NCBI RefSeq assembly: GCF_000374125.1
Contig: NZ_KB893643.1
Coordinates: 1 to 64,000, forward strand
Direction: 5' to 3'
Length of the DNA stretch: 64,000 nt
Source: Niabella aurantiaca DSM 17617
GTDB lineage: Bacteria; Bacteroidota; Bacteroidia; Chitinophagales; Chitinophagaceae
How positions within the stretch are numbered: the stretch's first letter is position 1; each line of letters opens with the position of its first letter. Of this stretch, positions 44,924 through 52,073 are shown in pieces. The position numbers and the translations under genes were made by a program. Under the pieces are notes generated by a model, which was not told the DNA's origin, did no database searches, and saw only the letters and a list, made by a program, of their open reading frames with translations.

Positions 44924-45108
44924 CTGCTATTTAATGAATCGGTTAAAAAATATACCTGCATTTTCTCCTGCAAAGGGCAGCGCCCCCTCCGGGAGATGCA
45001 GCGCGAAGGAGAACCATCCAGCTGTAAGCTTTCCGCTCCCGGCAGGTCACCATGCATCAAACCGGATCCAGCGTGAAATCCTGAACCTTAAACCTGGAAC
45101 ATCCATGA

Positions 45109-48100
45109 TCAGGAGGCTTTCTTCATCTGTTTCTGCAGCTCTTTAATGGTCATATTGTACATGATGCTATGCCTGTTGTTGACGCGCTGTGCCAGGTGTA
45201 CATGCGCGATGTAATCCTGAACGATCTGTATCTTATCACTGGGCGTTACAACCAGCAATTGCAGATGCAGCTGTTTGCACAGTTCCATCAGGTAGGTTGC
45301 CTTGTCTTCATCCTGGTTGCTGAAGCTTTCATCCACGGCAATAAAACGCAGGCTGCGACTGTTCTTTCCCTCACGGGTGATGCCAAACTGGTAAGCGATG
45401 GCGCTGCACAGGATCGTATAGGTCAGCTGGGCCTTCTCCCCGCCGGACAACTGGCCCATCTGGCGATAGGTCTTTTTCAGCTCTCCGGTATTGCGGAATT
45501 TTTCATCTGCCCAGAACTCAAACCAGTTCCGCACATCCATCACCCGCGTACGGTAGGTTTCGCTTTCATCGAGGCTGTCGATCAGCGGTTGTACTTTCTG
45601 GCGGAAATGCAGTGCCTTGTCCTCAAAGCTGCTCTGCTGCCAGTTGGCCGCCTGAGGCAAGGCCTCCAGCAGGGCATTGCGGAAGGCATTTACCGTGGCA
45701 TCCTGTACCCGGCGCTTGCCCAGCTGGATGTAGGTATCCGGGAGCTTGTTAAAGTTAATTCCTCCCAGCGACTGGTTCAGCTTGCTCACACTGTTATTGA
45801 TCTCCCGCTCCCATTTTTCCATTTCCTCATTCAACCCGCCGATCTTATAGGTAATGGTATCGTTGACAAAATTCTCAAAGTCCTTCCGGTATTTCGGCAG
45901 GTTCTCACTCACCAGTTTATCCAGCCACTCTTTAAACTCTTCCGCATGCTCCGCCTCTTCCGGCAGGAACTGCACATCACTATACCAGTCCGGGAAACGT
46001 TGCAATAAAGCCGGAGACGGATTCTTGATCTGGCTGATGCCCCGGTTCAGCTGCGTTTCTTCCTTATGCAGCAGCCGCTGCATTTCCTGCGTTTCGTTCT
46101 CCAGCTGTGTTTTAAACTGCGCATATAGTGTTTCAATATTCTCCAATGTTACAGTTGCCAGCAACGCCGCATGCTGTTGCTGAAACAGCAGCAGCTCTTC
46201 CTTATCCGTTTCGGTAATATGCTGCAACAGTAATTGCAGTTGCTCCCGTTGCTGCTCCATCGTCCGGATCCCGTTTTGCAGGGTGGTTTTCGCCTGCGCG
46301 GCCTGCTCCCAACTCTTTTCTGCCTCCTGGCGCTGCCGGATCGTTGCTTCCAGCTGTGCGGTCAGTTCCTGTAACTGGTTGTTGCTTTTGCTCAATGCCG
46401 TGATCTGCTCTCCGGTTTTATGAATGTTCCGCTGTATGCCCGCTACGTCCAGCAATGCAAAGCCACCATGTTCCTGCAGCCGGTTCAGCGCATAGAATTG
46501 TTTTTGCAGCCGGGCAGCCCGGTTGCGGCAACGCTCTATGATCTCGGCGGCATTCGCCAGCTCATCTGCCAGCTTATTCCGCTGACTGATGAGCGCCTCT
46601 TTCTTATTTTCATTGTTCCAACCCATTACATAACGCCCGGCATCATTGCTGCCCGGCCGGTCATCCTTCTCATGCCGGTCGCGGTTCTTGATCAGCCCGT
46701 TCAGCGTAATAGCCTTATCATAGCGCTCCATCGGCTTCTCCTCTTCCAGGCAGGTATAGGAAAACTGCTGCACCACCTGCTGTTGTACCCAACCGGAAAG
46801 CGGATGTTCCGGATGAAAATCCAGCTTATAAAAAACGGTATCGTCCTCTGCCAGGGTATGAAAGGTATCCAGTACCCGGTAATAGACCAGCCGGGTGCCG
46901 GTATTGGTCTGATTGAGGTAGCGGGTCACTTTTTTATAGTACTGATCGGGCACCAGCAGGCGGAGCGAAAAGCCATACAATAATTTTTCAATGGCCGGCT
47001 GCCAGCGCTGTTCTTCCGGCTTTACCTGCATCAGTTCGCCGGCGAAGGGCAGTTCCGATGTATCCAGTTTTAATGCCGCGCACAATTGCCGGCGTACCTG
47101 TACCAGGTGGGCAGGGATATTGCTTTTGTTGTGCAGCAGGATATTCAGTTCTTCTTCCAGGCTGCTCTTTGCCTCCCCGGCCCTTTTATGGAGGTTCCTG
47201 GCATCAAAATCATCTGCCTCGTTCTGCCGGTTCTCTTTTTCGAGCCGCCGGGCAAACTGGCCGGCTTCCTTCTGCACGCGTTTATAACTTTCTTCATCGG
47301 AAGCGCTTTTATCTTCCAGGTGTAATGCGGCACACCACTCTGTAAATAATGTGAGGTCGCTTTCGGCTTCTGCTCTTTTGGCCTGCAATGCCTGCAGCTC
47401 CTGCTCCAGCTGCTTCAGCCGCTGCCCGGCCTGATTCTGGTCGATCTGGTTCCGGGTAACGCGTTCTTCTTCATGCAGGGCATCAATACCCGCTTTTGCT
47501 ATTGCGGTTTTCTCTTCCAGCTCTTTTACACCCATGCCGGCTTCTTCCAGTGCCTGTTGTAATAACCGGTCCTGGGTATAGCCCTTCCATGCAGCAGCAG
47601 TATGCAGGGCCTTTTGGGCGTTCTGCTGCCGGGTCTGCAGATTTTTGAACCCGGTATAATGTTCCTGTACAGGTTGCAGCAGGCGGATCTGCTCTTCCGC
47701 CTTTTCAATATTCCGCTGGGCATCCAGCAGCGTGGCCAGGTGCTTTTTTAGTTCCTGGAACAGGGATTCCATATCGCGCGGCTCCAGCATATGCGTGCGG
47801 ATAAAATCATCCAGGTTGCCCAATACTTTAATGCCTACGGTCTGATTAAAAAGGGTCAGCGCCTGGATGCTCTGCATCCCCAGCACATCCACCAGCCGGT
47901 GGGCATATTTGCTCGCGGCATCAAACCATTCTACCTGCTTGCGGCTCCCTTTATTGTATTGCTGATCCAGCCGGCGTTTCCAGGCATTGCCGAGGTCGAA
48001 GGGCTTAAAATCTTCCTCAATATGCAGACTTTTATGGGCAATACCAAACATCCGTTTCATATCCCCGTTGTTGAAATACCGCACCTGGAACAGGGTCACT

Positions 48101-48492
48101 TCCTGCATGGCTTCATTGGTAAAATTAGCCAGCAGGATGCTGTAGGCTTCTTCGCGGTTCTCCCGCAGGTACAAGGCTTTGGTAACGCCGTTCTCATTGT
48201 TGATGGTGCCATAGCCCCCCAGTACATAAGTTTCTTCGGTACGGTCGCCTTTCTTTTCGCTGCCGCTGCTCTGGTTATAGAACCGGTATTTTTTTTCGGG
48301 AACGATGAGCGTTAGCAGGGCGTCCACAAACGTGGTTTTCCCGCTGCCGTTTGATCCTGTAAGCAGGCTGGTTTCCCCACCGGGAATGATGGTATGGATC
48401 TGTTCGTCGAAAGTTCCCCAGTTAAAGACTTCCATGTATTGTAACCGGAAGCCGCTTTTTTCATTATCCGTGCTGAATACGCTTAGCTGCAT
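45109..48492 (-). CDS. jetC: JetC/MksB-like SMC ATPase
   Basis: 1127 residues. Walker A SLLTGSNGSGKTTFVDALL lies near 40-60; long coiled coils fill about 270-450 and 650-930; LSGGEKAQLTYTIL is the ABC signature and FIAVDESFSNQDED the Walker B with D-loop near 1045-1060. This is the SMC subunit of a Wadjet/MksBEF condensin that traps or extrudes DNA and in Wadjet excludes plasmids. It overlaps jetB by 29 nt. The 185 nt after its stop hold no jetD gene. Confidence 0.9.
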   Translation of the reverse strand: MQLSVFSTDNEKSGFRLQYMEVFNWGTFDEQIHTIIPGGETSLLTGSNGSGKTTFVDALLTLIVPEKKYRFYNQSSGSEKKGDRTEETYVLGGYGTINNENGVTKALYLRENREEAYSILLANFTNEAMQEVTLFQVRYFNNGDMKRMFGIAHKSLHIEEDFKPFDLGNAWKRRLDQQYNKGSRKQVEWFDAASKYAHRLVDVLGMQSIQALTLFNQTVGIKVLGNLDDFIRTHMLEPRDMESLFQELKKHLATLLDAQRNIEKAEEQIRLLQPVQEHYTGFKNLQTRQQNAQKALHTAAAWKGYTQDRLLQQALEEAGMGVKELEEKTAIAKAGIDALHEEERVTRNQIDQNQAGQRLKQLEQELQALQAKRAEAESDLTLFTEWCAALHLEDKSASDEESYKRVQKEAGQFARRLEKENRQNEADDFDARNLHKRAGEAKSSLEEELNILLHNKSNIPAHLVQVRRQLCAALKLDTSELPFAGELMQVKPEEQRWQPAIEKLLYGFSLRLLVPDQYYKKVTRYLNQTNTGTRLVYYRVLDTFHTLAEDDTVFYKLDFHPEHPLSGWVQQQVVQQFSYTCLEEEKPMERYDKAITLNGLIKNRDRHEKDDRPGSNDAGRYVMGWNNENKKEALISQRNKLADELANAAEIIERCRNRAARLQKQFYALNRLQEHGGFALLDVAGIQRNIHKTGEQITALSKSNNQLQELTAQLEATIRQRQEAEKSWEQAAQAKTTLQNGIRTMEQQREQLQLLLQHITETDKEELLLFQQQHAALLATVTLENIETLYAQFKTQLENETQEMQRLLHKEETQLNRGISQIKNPSPALLQRFPDWYSDVQFLPEEAEHAEEFKEWLDKLVSENLPKYRKDFENFVNDTITYKIGGLNEEMEKWEREINNSVSKLNQSLGGINFNKLPDTYIQLGKRRVQDATVNAFRNALLEALPQAANWQQSSFEDKALHFRQKVQPLIDSLDESETYRTRVMDVRNWFEFWADEKFRNTGELKKTYRQMGQLSGGEKAQLTYTILCSAIAYQFGITREGKNSRSLRFIAVDESFSNQDEDKATYLMELCKQLHLQLLVVTPSDKIQIVQDYIAHVHLAQRVNNRHSIMYNMTIKELQKQMKKAS

Positions 48493-49054
48493 GTGCTGTC
48501 AATTGCTGTTTAAAATCTTCTAATACCTCGCTGTCTACCCGGGCTTTGATGAGCTTTTTGATCCGGAATTTTTGTTCATCCGGCACTTCGTGTACACCCG
48601 ACCGTTCCAGGAATCCATTTTCCACGGCGCGTTCGATGAGCCGGTCGATGTCCTTCAGCATCTTTACCCGGCTGGCATTTTCTTTAAAAAATAACTCGGC
48701 ATACTCCTTGATCTCCCTTCTTTTTTTGATCAGCTCCCGCTGGGTAGCCTCGCCCACTTCAAATTCAGCCATCATATCGCGCAGTAACACCAGCATCACA
48801 CTTTCGTCGTAGGCCAGGGCCCGGCGCTGTACCCAGCTTACACTGGTGGCGTCCTCTTCCGATACCGCGTGTTTTATGTACGCGTAGCCATCCTGCTCAT
48901 CCAGTACCAGGGTCAGTCCTACACCCTGTAAAAAAACGATAAGCTCGGTCTTGTACTGGAGCAGCTTTTCCCAAACGTTTTTGTCCAGGTATTCTACCGG
49001 GCCTTTGAGCAGCTTGATGAACACAGGCGTAAATGAATGTATTTTTTCGGCCAT
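48464..49054 (-). CDS. jetB: JetB/MksE-like protein (DUF4194)
   Basis: 196 residues from ATG 49054 (MAEKIHSFTPVFIKLLKGPV), preferred over the upstream frame to 49099, which overlaps jetA. DUF4194 form: tandem winged-helix-like segments with YIKHAVSEEDATSVSWVQRR and ELIKKRREIKEYAELFFKEN. It is the KITE-type subunit bridging kleisin and SMC arms. The order jetA, jetB, jetC is the standard one for the plasmid-defence system. Confidence 0.88.
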   Translation of the reverse strand: MAEKIHSFTPVFIKLLKGPVEYLDKNVWEKLLQYKTELIVFLQGVGLTLVLDEQDGYAYIKHAVSEEDATSVSWVQRRALAYDESVMLVLLRDMMAEFEVGEATQRELIKKRREIKEYAELFFKENASRVKMLKDIDRLIERAVENGFLERSGVHEVPDEQKFRIKKLIKARVDSEVLEDFKQQLTAHAAKRIQHG

Positions 49055-49064
49055 GGATCTCTTT

Positions 49065-50537
49065 CTATTTACTAAATAACAAATACGGCACTTCCACAAA
49101 TTTATCGGCGCTGCTGTTCAACGGGATCAGCTCTACCGCGCTACCCACTATCTGCACCCTTTTTGATCTTTCTTTTAAAAAACCGTAGTAGCTGATCACC
49201 TCGGCCAGGCCATGTTCCAGCTTTGCAGCTTCTATGACCTCTTTTAGGGTGGCGGTTTGTTTGTGTTCCAGCACCTGCTCTACCTTTTGCCAGAGCCGCT
49301 TTTTGTCTATAAAGCTGGTGTTCAGCAACCGGTTGAACCGGTCCACATCGGCGATCTTTTCCACGGCCGGCATGGGCTGTTTTAATGCGCCTGCCGTTTT
49401 TTTTGCCTCCAGCGTCAGCCCCCGGTCCATAACGATCTTAATATCGGCAGCCTCTTCCAGTAACAATCCAGCTTCAACAGGATGCTCTTCCTCCATGAGA
49501 TCGAATACCAGCTCCTTGATGCCGCTGATCTGCTGGCGCAGCCGCCGGTGGCGCGCGATCTCCTTTTCGGTGATGATGCGGCTGAGCTTCTCCGCCATTT
49601 TATCGTTGGCATCGTAGACCGCACGCCCCTGCTCCAGCAGAAATGATTTGATATTTTGCAGGAAATCCGTGTCGGCTTCCAGCTGGCGGTCTTCCAGCAG
49701 GAGCAGCAGCTGTTCGGTAAGCTGCCGCCATTCTTCCTGTCCGCTGCGGGAGATGAGGAAATCCCAGAAGGCATAAAAACTCTTGCCCTGGTTGCTGCTG
49801 CGCAACGCATCGTACGATTCAAAAGCAAAACCCACAATGGCACCTTTGTTCTGTTCTGCACGGGTATGCTGCTCCACGATGCTGCGATGGATCTGTTTGA
49901 AATTGTCTTCAACCTCGCGAAAATCGCCGATCAGCTCATAACAAAGACGGATGAACAGATCGAGCCGCTCCTGTACCTGGGCATTGTTATACCGCTGCGG
50001 CGCCACACCCAGCTCCAGTGCTTTTATTTCTTTATCGATTTCCGCCTTCCGGTCTTTGAGGATCTGCAGCTTGCGTTCCCGGTCATCCTCGGTATTCTCT
50101 ACCATATCGCGCAGGGAAGAGAACAGCATTTTGAACCGGCTTTCGGTTCCCACGTGATGCTGTCCCTTCTGCAGATGCTGCATCCATTGAAAAACTTTTT
50201 CGGTATAAGCGCTCAGCTGGTAATTGGTATTGCCTTCGGTGTCGGGAAAATCCTGCAGGATCCGTTTCTGTACCCAGCTCAGCAGGTACTTCCGGCTGCG
50301 GCTCTCTTCATCCTCTCCAAAATCGATCCGTGCTTCCTCCCAGTCTTCCATACCATCTGCATGCGCGCCGAGCGTCTCTGCCAGCAATGGCACAAGCTGG
50401 TCCTCCCGGATCACCATCCGGCGGTTCTCTTTAAAAACAGTATATAAAAACGGTAATACCCAGCCTGCATTCCGCAACCGCAACATTTGCAGCGCTGGTG
50501 ATGAACTGATTAAAAATGCAATTTGCTCGCTTGTCAT
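49065..50537 (-). CDS. jetA: JetA/MksF-like kleisin (DUF3375)
   Basis: 490 residues: the N-terminal winged-helix region begins MTSEQIAFLISSSPALQML, with RKYLLSWVQKRILQDFPDTE near 95-115, central helical segments ERKLQILKDRKAEIDKEIKA near 165-185, and a C-terminal winged-helix segment at 410-490 near YGFLKERSKRVQIVGS. DUF3375 proteins are the kleisin JetA of type I Wadjet. First gene of the operon; the upstream 276 nt are AT-rich with a palindrome AGTTTATGTAAACT (50718-50731). Confidence 0.88.
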   Translation of the reverse strand: MTSEQIAFLISSSPALQMLRLRNAGWVLPFLYTVFKENRRMVIREDQLVPLLAETLGAHADGMEDWEEARIDFGEDEESRSRKYLLSWVQKRILQDFPDTEGNTNYQLSAYTEKVFQWMQHLQKGQHHVGTESRFKMLFSSLRDMVENTEDDRERKLQILKDRKAEIDKEIKALELGVAPQRYNNAQVQERLDLFIRLCYELIGDFREVEDNFKQIHRSIVEQHTRAEQNKGAIVGFAFESYDALRSSNQGKSFYAFWDFLISRSGQEEWRQLTEQLLLLLEDRQLEADTDFLQNIKSFLLEQGRAVYDANDKMAEKLSRIITEKEIARHRRLRQQISGIKELVFDLMEEEHPVEAGLLLEEAADIKIVMDRGLTLEAKKTAGALKQPMPAVEKIADVDRFNRLLNTSFIDKKRLWQKVEQVLEHKQTATLKEVIEAAKLEHGLAEVISYYGFLKERSKRVQIVGSAVELIPLNSSADKFVEVPYLLFSK

Positions 50538-50813
50538 GCCTCTACAAAACCATCTCTTTTACAATAGGAAGCCTGCAAAATAAGATAATCTGGTGAGATT
50601 AATGGCACAACATTTTTTAAACGGCGGGCATTCCCGACAACCAATGCCAAAACCCATCGGTTGACCAGGAGGACAGGCGATAGGCCTTTGAAGAGCCGGG
50701 CAAGCAGCAATATATTAAGTTTATGTAAACTACTATATCTAATTAAAAATTATAAATTTATACCACTTTATATAAAATAGCATTAAACTAAACAATGCTC
50801 TTTTCAGCGCTGC

Positions 50814-52073
50814 CTATCTGGTTTGCCTGTTATGTGCATTGCGAACGGATCTGCCTGTATCCGGGTGTTTTTTGCGGTAGATAGAGGAGTCTCTGCCCGT
50901 GGCCTGCAGTTCCCTCTTCAAAACAGCCTGCACCACTCCCGGCCGGGTATCCTTTATTTGCCGGCCGTTCAAAAAAACAGCCGGAGTTCCTTCAATACCA
51001 AGGGTCGTACCCTGGCGGATACCAGCCTGAACAACAGACGCTGCAACCGGGCCATTCCGGAATGAATCAAAGGCCGGCAGTTGCAGGCTGCATTGTTTTG
51101 CCACCATGATAAGATCTTTTTTCCCTGCATCTTTAAACAGTTCGTGGTGAAATTCCATAAATTTCCCCTGCTGAGCGGCTGCCAGGGAGGCCTTTGCCGC
51201 CTCGCAGGCACCGGCATGCAGGTCTTTCTTAATAGAATGATTGCAGTCTGTGCTGAGCGGAAACGGTTTAAATACGATCAAACATTCTCCTCCGAATTTC
51301 TTCAGAATACTGTCTGTTTCCGCCGAAAACATCCGGCAGGCGGGGCAATAAAAATCTGTAAAGATCACCAGCTTCATAGCTCCGGACGGATTTCCGGCGG
51401 TTGCATCTTCTTTGCTGACAGGGATCTGCCGCACCGGCTGGAGGTCATAATCCGCAACTATTTTTTTGATATCGATCCTTTGCCGGGCAGCCGTGGAAAG
51501 CGCCAATGCTTTTAAACCAAAGAAGCCCGATGTCATAAAAAAGCCAGCGACCAGGAAACCAAACGCTTTCCAGAGCCCTGAAGCAGCAGCAGGTTGCACT
51601 TGCACGGCCGGTGCCCGAAAGCTGCTTAAAAATGACCGGAATCCATAGCTGTTTATTTTCATCAGCAGGAAAAACAAGAGGAAATTGATCCCATGAATCA
51701 TCGTGCAAAACGGGCAAAACAGCGCAGGTTGCAAAAGCATTAATCCGATAAAGTAGCCCCCTGCCATGACGCTGCAAAAGCTGAACAGGAAAATGAAAAA
51801 GCGGCTTCCCTGCAAAAAGGCGTTTCCAAAAAGCCGGGGAATCAGGAAAAACAAGCCAAGGGAAACATAATACAGTATTCCCCAGCCCCCCAGGGGCAGC
51901 CCCAGCAATTCGGCATAGAAGCCGGAAAGCGCCCCATTACAGCTATTGCCGAAAACAGCCAAACAAACATCCGGTCCTCCGGTTTCCAAATGTTTAAAAA
52001 ACAAATAAAAAGAAAGGGTCATCGCCCATACCATCAAAAAGACTACGATCCCTCTGGTTACAACGGTTTTCAT
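50814..52073 (-). CDS. VKOR-thioredoxin fusion membrane protein
   Basis: 419 residues. N-terminal helices hold a vitamin K epoxide reductase-type domain (PDVCLAVFGNSCNGALSG with the loop Cys pair, ALFCPFCTMIHGIN with the redox CXXC), a further membrane segment near 185-205, then a periplasmic DsbA/thioredoxin-like domain with FTDFYCPACRMF and GIEGTPAVFLNG. It should use quinone to reoxidise the thioredoxin domain and so form disulfides in exported proteins. Upstream of it is a small Cys-containing secreted protein that might be a client. Confidence 0.88.
   Translation of the reverse strand: MKTVVTRGIVVFLMVWAMTLSFYLFFKHLETGGPDVCLAVFGNSCNGALSGFYAELLGLPLGGWGILYYVSLGLFFLIPRLFGNAFLQGSRFFIFLFSFCSVMAGGYFIGLMLLQPALFCPFCTMIHGINFLLFFLLMKINSYGFRSFLSSFRAPAVQVQPAAASGLWKAFGFLVAGFFMTSGFFGLKALALSTAARQRIDIKKIVADYDLQPVRQIPVSKEDATAGNPSGAMKLVIFTDFYCPACRMFSAETDSILKKFGGECLIVFKPFPLSTDCNHSIKKDLHAGACEAAKASLAAAQQGKFMEFHHELFKDAGKKDLIMVAKQCSLQLPAFDSFRNGPVAASVVQAGIRQGTTLGIEGTPAVFLNGRQIKDTRPGVVQAVLKRELQATGRDSSIYRKKHPDTGRSVRNAHNRQTR

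Follow-up and report, generated by a model that had tools for sequence, protein, structure and literature searches.

The window analysed here, a stretch of 64,000 nucleotides (nt) from Niabella aurantiaca DSM 17617 (assembly GCF_000374125.1, contig NZ_KB893643.1, positions 1 to 64,000; all coordinates below are those of the window), contains an intact jetA-jetB-jetC operon of the type I Wadjet family that lacks the nuclease gene jetD. Judging from orthologous loci and a JetC tree, jetD seems to have been lost repeatedly in the Chitinophagaceae, about ten times, and the three remaining genes are under purifying selection in clades without it. We propose, with a probability of about 0.5, that JetABC without JetD is kept as a nuclease-free structural maintenance of chromosomes (SMC) complex, most likely engaged in MksBEF-like organization of DNA.

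The jetABC operon and the absence of jetD

The operon and the position at which relatives carry jetD are as follows.

49065..50537, minus strand: jetA, kleisin subunit (DUF3375), 490 aa
48464..49054, minus strand: jetB, KITE subunit (DUF4194/MksE-like), 196 aa
45109..48492, minus strand: jetC, SMC-type ATPase, 1127 aa
48334..48357, minus strand: JetC Walker A, GSNGSGKT, motif in the sequence
45433..45450, minus strand: JetC ABC signature, LSGGEK, motif in the sequence
45325..45345, minus strand: JetC Walker B, FIAVDES, motif in the sequence
44924..45108, no strand: position of jetD in relatives, 185 nt, JetD remnant not found

All three genes are complete and lie on the minus strand in the order jetA-jetB-jetC (45109-50537), with a 10 nt gap between jetA and jetB, a 29 nt overlap of jetB and jetC, and 185 nt from jetC to the gene that follows, by eye a SulP-like permease; the jetB start is placed at the ATG at 49054, the mechanical open reading frame (ORF) beginning at 49099. 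JetA matches PF11855 at 286.8 bits (Pfam) and the PADLOC model JetA1 (PDLC00444) over residues 1-490 at 624 bits, and its closest solved structure in the PDB is Wadjet JetA 8dk1 (E 5.9e-9). JetB matches DUF4194 at 116.7 bits, MksE at 38.8 bits (Pfam; MksE cut-off 27) and PADLOC JetB1 (PDLC00487) at 158 bits, its match to the solved JetB being weak (E 0.14). JetC contains AAA_29 and SbcC Walker B matches (Pfam), is covered by PADLOC JetC1 (PDLC00512) over residues 3-1125 at 1093 bits, and has as its nearest solved relatives Wadjet JetC 8dk2 (E 2.9e-52) and 8as8 (E 1.3e-50). The PADLOC matches are thus near full length for all three proteins, and a first-pass annotation of this DNA, which had described intact genes in the usual order with clear ATPase motifs, is borne out by Pfam, PADLOC and the motif positions. 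By JetA, the nearest named relatives are Niabella species.

The same annotation had noted neither a jetD gene nor a remnant of one beside the operon, and this too holds: tblastn of the available JetDs over the window gave nothing better than E = 0.15, and a JetD profile run over the 3 kb after jetC detected no remnant. The genome search that it had proposed returned no match to either JetD Pfam domain, PF09983 or PF11795, in the genome itself (G000; 5.93 Mb in 25 contigs, completeness 100, contamination 0.26), and a search with JetD from the congener G119 gave nothing there better than E = 0.48. Since PF09983 detects JetD in four of the 17 genomes of the genus, the search can see JetD at this distance. 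Within the sensitivity of these searches the genome does not encode a JetD homologue elsewhere, so that the earlier suggestion of a nuclease encoded elsewhere would now call for an unrelated nuclease. A PADLOC Wadjet call requires all four genes (PMC9252829; this and the other papers cited by PMC number are cited from the parts of their text that were available), so that the operon is a Wadjet-derived JetABC and not a complete Wadjet system; without JetD, it would not be expected to cut plasmids by the established mechanism. The genome also contains ScpA, the component of Smc-ScpAB that was searched for, which makes it unlikely that JetABC is the sole condensin.

Loss of jetD at orthologous loci

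One locus in the genus is found in three states: jetD is intact in G155 (locus L142), reduced to a remnant in G158 (L038) and gone in G152 (L143). The remnant consists of the first four jetD codons, a deletion, and then about the last 31 codons, which are 80.6% identical to JetD by tblastn (E 4e-10) and are recovered by the profile (E 6.6e-8), the alignment agreeing. At all three loci jetABC and a gene for a 308-aa protein sit between rpoB-like and rplL-like genes (named by eye). The rplKAJL-rpoBC cluster is usually tight, and no locus of another genome in the set has such neighbours. A further example is the Pinibacter-type locus L072, which has no jetD and aligns on both flanks with L073.

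A remnant search over the 48 tree rows without a local jetD (39 with none and nine with JetD elsewhere, one outgroup row included; a different set from the 48 loci searched genome-wide below) gave one clear case, L038, with L058 at E 0.83 not counted and no remnants in a codon-shuffled control; less than 3 kb after jetC was available in four of these 48 rows, and under 0.8 kb in two. Deletion of jetD is thus demonstrated in relatives, and we infer the same for the window's operon. An earlier proposal that the operon might be an undescribed variant needs changing, as the three states found at a single locus in relatives amount to an ordinary loss of jetD; the first-pass annotation had itself named relatives with jetD at this position as the sign of simple loss, and their existence answers the question of origin in that sense without refuting the proposed function.

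Distribution of jetABC and jetD

In a survey of the family, JetC matches were found in 33 of 147 genomes and JetD matches in 20. Within the genus JetC is matched in 14 of 17 genomes, 12 of them with the window type, and among these 12 JetD lies beside jetC in G155 and about 75 kb away in G119, with none in the other 10. JetC copies at least 53% identical to that of the window number 21: JetD follows directly or within about 1.5 kb in six, three are in genomes with JetD elsewhere (G119, G036 and G023, the last on another contig and unplaced), and 12 are in genomes with no JetD. Among 15 more distant copies (at most 39% identical) JetD follows directly in 12, the others being in G039 (no JetD in the genome), in G128 (JetC at a contig end) and one of the copies in G023. 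The contrast in adjacency between near and distant copies (Fisher p 0.006, with related genomes not independent) indicates that the jetD-less state is concentrated in the window's own JetC clade. Of 395 genomes from across the phylum, 59 score above the DUF3375 cut-off, and JetD is unmatched in 13 of those 59; 11 of the 13, in assemblies of 50 to 520 contigs each, come from a single other family (f18), and two from the family considered here (G000 and G029).

A search by JetA yielded 63 loci, 15 of them with JetD within the fetched DNA. A genome-wide PF09983 search for the remaining 48, in which both controls were found, gave no JetD for 40 and a JetD elsewhere for eight; six of these eight lie beside a second JetC, and two (L151 and L154) are at contig ends and ambiguous. 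Some loci come from metagenome bins, and the genomes of this search carry no completeness figures, so that absence in them is weaker evidence; one locus (L074, titled Beijerinckiaceae) may be mis-binned. Carriage of the window's JetC clade by plasmids or phages was considered and rejected, as JetC-like matches were found in only 17 of 72,556 plasmid records and one of 50,697 phage records, all less than 60% identical.

On a JetC tree of 67 rows the presence of jetD takes no fewer than 13 changes of state to explain, of which starred branches force 10; omitting the outgroup lowers the minimum to 11. These counts do not distinguish gain from loss. A single clade of jetD-bearers is rejected (p-AU 1.5e-49). 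The tree was made by a quick method, has long branches (L086, L071, L080 and others) and excludes five rows with JetC shorter than 1000 aa (L037, L059, L079, L092 and L093). JetD identity correlates with JetC identity (r 0.87 for 20 rows with the outgroup, 0.91 for the 17 ingroup rows and 0.79 for 12 rows with near-copies thinned), with none of 2000 permutations as high in each case, and this fits an old association followed by repeated loss.

JetD also appears to be the loose part of the system where it is present. Its dN/dS (the ratio of non-synonymous to synonymous substitution rates) is about 0.11-0.14 in the L034-L036 group, as against jetABC medians of about 0.04, reflecting faster evolution, and in the Pinibacter relatives L073 and L077 JetC is 96% identical (dS 0.69) and JetD 72% (dS 3.7, saturated), which suggests that JetD has been exchanged between them. 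In G119 an intact JetD of 393 aa (L141:8168-9346) lies among unrelated genes about 75 kb from the genome's only JetC match. The best reading of these comparisons is that JetD is a labile effector of JetABC. At L034, L035, L036 and L089 one or two genes, including a RibD/DHFR-like reductase (by eye), stand between jetC and jetD, and at L077:9509-11099 two minus-strand ORFs separate jetA from jetB, with jetD intact.

Selection on jetABC without jetD

The genes that remain are strongly constrained. Median dN/dS values for JetA, JetB and JetC are 0.030, 0.053 and 0.033 among 15 Chitinophaga loci without jetD, 0.035, 0.048 and 0.043 among eight Niastella/Longitalea loci, and 0.027, 0.025 and 0.039 among five Niabella loci, an overall range of 0.025-0.053 that is similar to that of jetD-bearing pairs. 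Only pairs with a computable dS of 0.1-2 were used, which left for JetA, JetB and JetC respectively 38, 52 and 40 of 105 pairs in Chitinophaga, 28, 23 and 20 of 28 in Niastella/Longitalea, and 10, 10 and 10 of 10 in Niabella. jetABC is under purifying selection in clades without JetD.

Consistent with this, of 52 loci without a local jetD, 47 have full-length copies of all three genes, and Walker A, signature and Walker B are in place in the JetCs of all 47, in a motif test whose first pass was loose for Walker B and which was then repeated more strictly. The sole row flagged for Walker A is a jetD-bearing locus (L053), whose JetC Walker A reads GANASGKT, one glycine short. The five loci without three full-length genes are L059 and L079, which end at contig ends, and L037, L092 and L093, in which jetC lies in several frames, jetA also being broken in L092 and L093; the two genus genomes with a split jetC have completeness values of 72 and 83, and read errors may therefore account for the breaks in L037 and L092.

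Positions that do not vary among jetD-bearing rows are changed no more often in jetD-less rows (JetA less often, p 0.03; JetB p 0.47; JetC p 0.35), and a conservation shift at possible JetD-contact sites was not found in this test. The JetB N-terminal IFDR motif is reported to contact JetD (PMC10586767); the JetB described here begins about 40 residues later than the solved JetB in a weak alignment, and the IFDR comparison is not usable. The JetB N-terminal segments look alike with and without jetD.

Neighbouring genes and upstream sequence

Gene families were compared over the 63 loci and the window, up to 8 kb before jetA and about 4 kb after jetC. The possibility that another gene follows jetC in place of jetD was examined in this way and rejected, the families showing local synteny only: beyond JetA, JetB and JetC there are just four small families, each common to two or three of the 17 jetD-less groups. 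Chitinophaga loci have glycosyltransferase-like and cupin-like genes near jetC (named by eye). Upstream of jetA in the window, the minus strand at 50814-52073 encodes a 419-aa protein with the look of a VKOR-DsbA fusion (named by eye), and this gene family (C38) is also found upstream of jetA in L031 and L032. Searches for repeats and tRNAs near the operon were uninformative. One further element precedes the operon.

50575..50591, minus strand: conserved promoter-like block AGATTATCTTATTTTGC, 17 nt, 37 nt before the jetA start

The AGATTATCTTATTTTGC block is identical across the five jetD-less Niabella loci aligned, and its core, TATTTTGC, is common to all 11 aligned loci, jetD-bearing or not; the strict TANNTTTG pattern occurs in none of the 11. 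The core resembles the Bacteroidetes -7 element.

Function of JetABC without JetD

In the reading that we favour, the ancestral operon would have carried jetD directly after jetC, and jetD would have been deleted, as repeatedly in the family, with no decay of JetABC. The complex would now be an ATP-driven and probably loop-extruding SMC machine without DNA-cutting activity, its most likely task being to help to organize DNA (the chromosome, perhaps large replicons) beside the housekeeping Smc-ScpAB, like MksBEF of Pseudomonas. In the Wadjet motor, dimeric JetABC extrudes plasmid before JetD activation (PMC12647877), and homology to such motors suggests that the JetABC of the window should also be a loop extruder. 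The earlier suggestion that the complex may act like MksBEF is plausible and agrees with how long jetABC has persisted under purifying selection in the absence of JetD, the chromosomal role being the part that we infer.

Several observations weigh against this proposal. The patchy presence of JetC, matched in 33 of 147 genomes of the family and in 14 of 17 in the genus (12 of these with the window type), indicates a dispensable role. No neighbour occurs in more than three of the 17 jetD-less groups, and thus no new partner points to the chromosome, and the invariant sites, being unrelaxed, do not suggest that the proteins have moved towards a new function. For only eight of the 17 ingroup rows is the closest relative by JetD also the closest by JetC; JetD has therefore probably been exchanged at times, and some of the changes on the tree may be gains. 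Lastly, our literature search found no experiment on a Wadjet-clade JetABC acting on a chromosome.

The main rival is that JetABC restrains plasmids without cutting them, extruding small circular DNA fully and holding it compacted, which would impair the expression, replication or inheritance of the plasmid, in the way that Smc5/6 is proposed to act on viral episomes. Compaction of circular DNA without cutting is indeed a proposal made for Smc5/6 (PMC10586767), and jetD-less systems preserve the invariant residues of jetD-bearing ones just as well, as if sensing were unchanged. We nevertheless consider restraint unlikely: in Corynebacterium glutamicum the plasmid pBHK18 rises in copy number when mksG alone is deleted, as it does when mksB or mksF is (PMC10123090), and the nuclease-free complex is thus insufficient for plasmid control there. 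A count of small plasmids in relation to jetABCD is available for the Bacillota (PMC12287153).

It is improbable that JetABC instead has a partner encoded away from the operon, be it an unrelated nuclease, another kind of effector or a JetD at a distant locus, although G119, with its intact JetD about 75 kb from jetABC and a single JetC match, would fit an arrangement of this kind, and the Pinibacter pair (JetC 96% and JetD 72% identical) shows that JetD is separable. PF09983 is unmatched in the genomes of 40 of the 48 loci searched, six of the other eight JetDs adjoin a second JetC, and no common neighbour of the jetD-less groups replaces jetD.

We think it rather improbable, too, that jetD-less operons are temporary states, in which JetABC is kept since jetD is often regained by recombination. 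The JetD exchange in Pinibacter, the scatter of jetD over the JetC tree, the unrelaxed conserved sites and the differing nearest relatives of JetD and JetC in nine of 17 rows would all agree with such traffic; but 15 Chitinophaga and five Niabella have no JetD match anywhere in the genome, eight Niastella/Longitalea have no JetD of this operon (two have a JetD beside another JetC), and the jetABC genes of these clades are well diverged under constraint. A dead remnant not yet decayed is very improbable, for while jetD loss is real and five of 52 loci do not have three full-length genes, two of these (L059 and L079) are cut by contig ends, those of L037 and L092 may be broken by read errors, and the dN/dS medians of 0.025-0.053 in the jetD-less clades nearly refute it.

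Comparison with known systems

Repeated loss of jetD in the Bacteroidota is the subject of no report that we found in the open-access literature (most subscription papers lay outside the search), and the sole match to loss of JetD in that search was a 2023 review (PMC10586767), in which, in the part available, MksBEF and MukBEF are suggested to descend from Wadjet-like defence complexes, MksBEF by loss of the nuclease. The loci described here offer the states before, during and after the loss of jetD at one locus, with the remaining complex under strong selection, and the role of JetABC without JetD becomes directly testable in culturable soil bacteria. A practical consequence is that annotation of jetABC as plasmid defence is unsafe unless jetD is checked.

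The operon resembles type I Wadjet (JetABCD; also MksBEFG and EptABCD) in the homology of JetA, JetB and JetC, in gene order and in ATPase motifs, and its type is nested among jetD-bearing operons of the same family; it differs in that Wadjet has JetD, with DUF3322 and a JetD_C Toprim nuclease, and none was found in this genome. With MukBEF it has kleisin, KITE and SMC subunits in common, although the JetC of the window, at 1127 aa, has only a weak match to the MukB N-terminal domain (16.1 bits, cut-off 23). Smc5/6 is a mechanistic analogy only, being likewise an SMC complex that contains KITE subunits and may restrain circular DNA uncut (PMC10586767); it is eukaryotic, with other subunits, and membership is not claimed for JetABC. 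Another close parallel is MksBEF of Pseudomonas aeruginosa, a condensin without MksG/JetD, which is likewise a MukBEF-like three-gene complex with no nuclease in a cell that has ScpA, and the window's operon is, like it, a kleisin-KITE-SMC set without a nuclease. Here, however, the loss is separate and repeated, and lies inside one Wadjet clade, JetC having been placed among the JetCs of the family in a tree without Pseudomonas MksB, and a chromosomal role would be shared by analogy. We tentatively suggest, at somewhat less than even odds, that the Chitinophagaceae repeatedly delete jetD and so convert a Wadjet that cuts plasmids into an SMC complex free of nuclease, with JetABC otherwise unchanged, and that defence and DNA organization (or non-cutting restraint) may be two uses of one machine, one detachable gene apart. 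If so, these replicated losses would provide a natural experiment on the origin of MksBEF-type condensins from defence systems.

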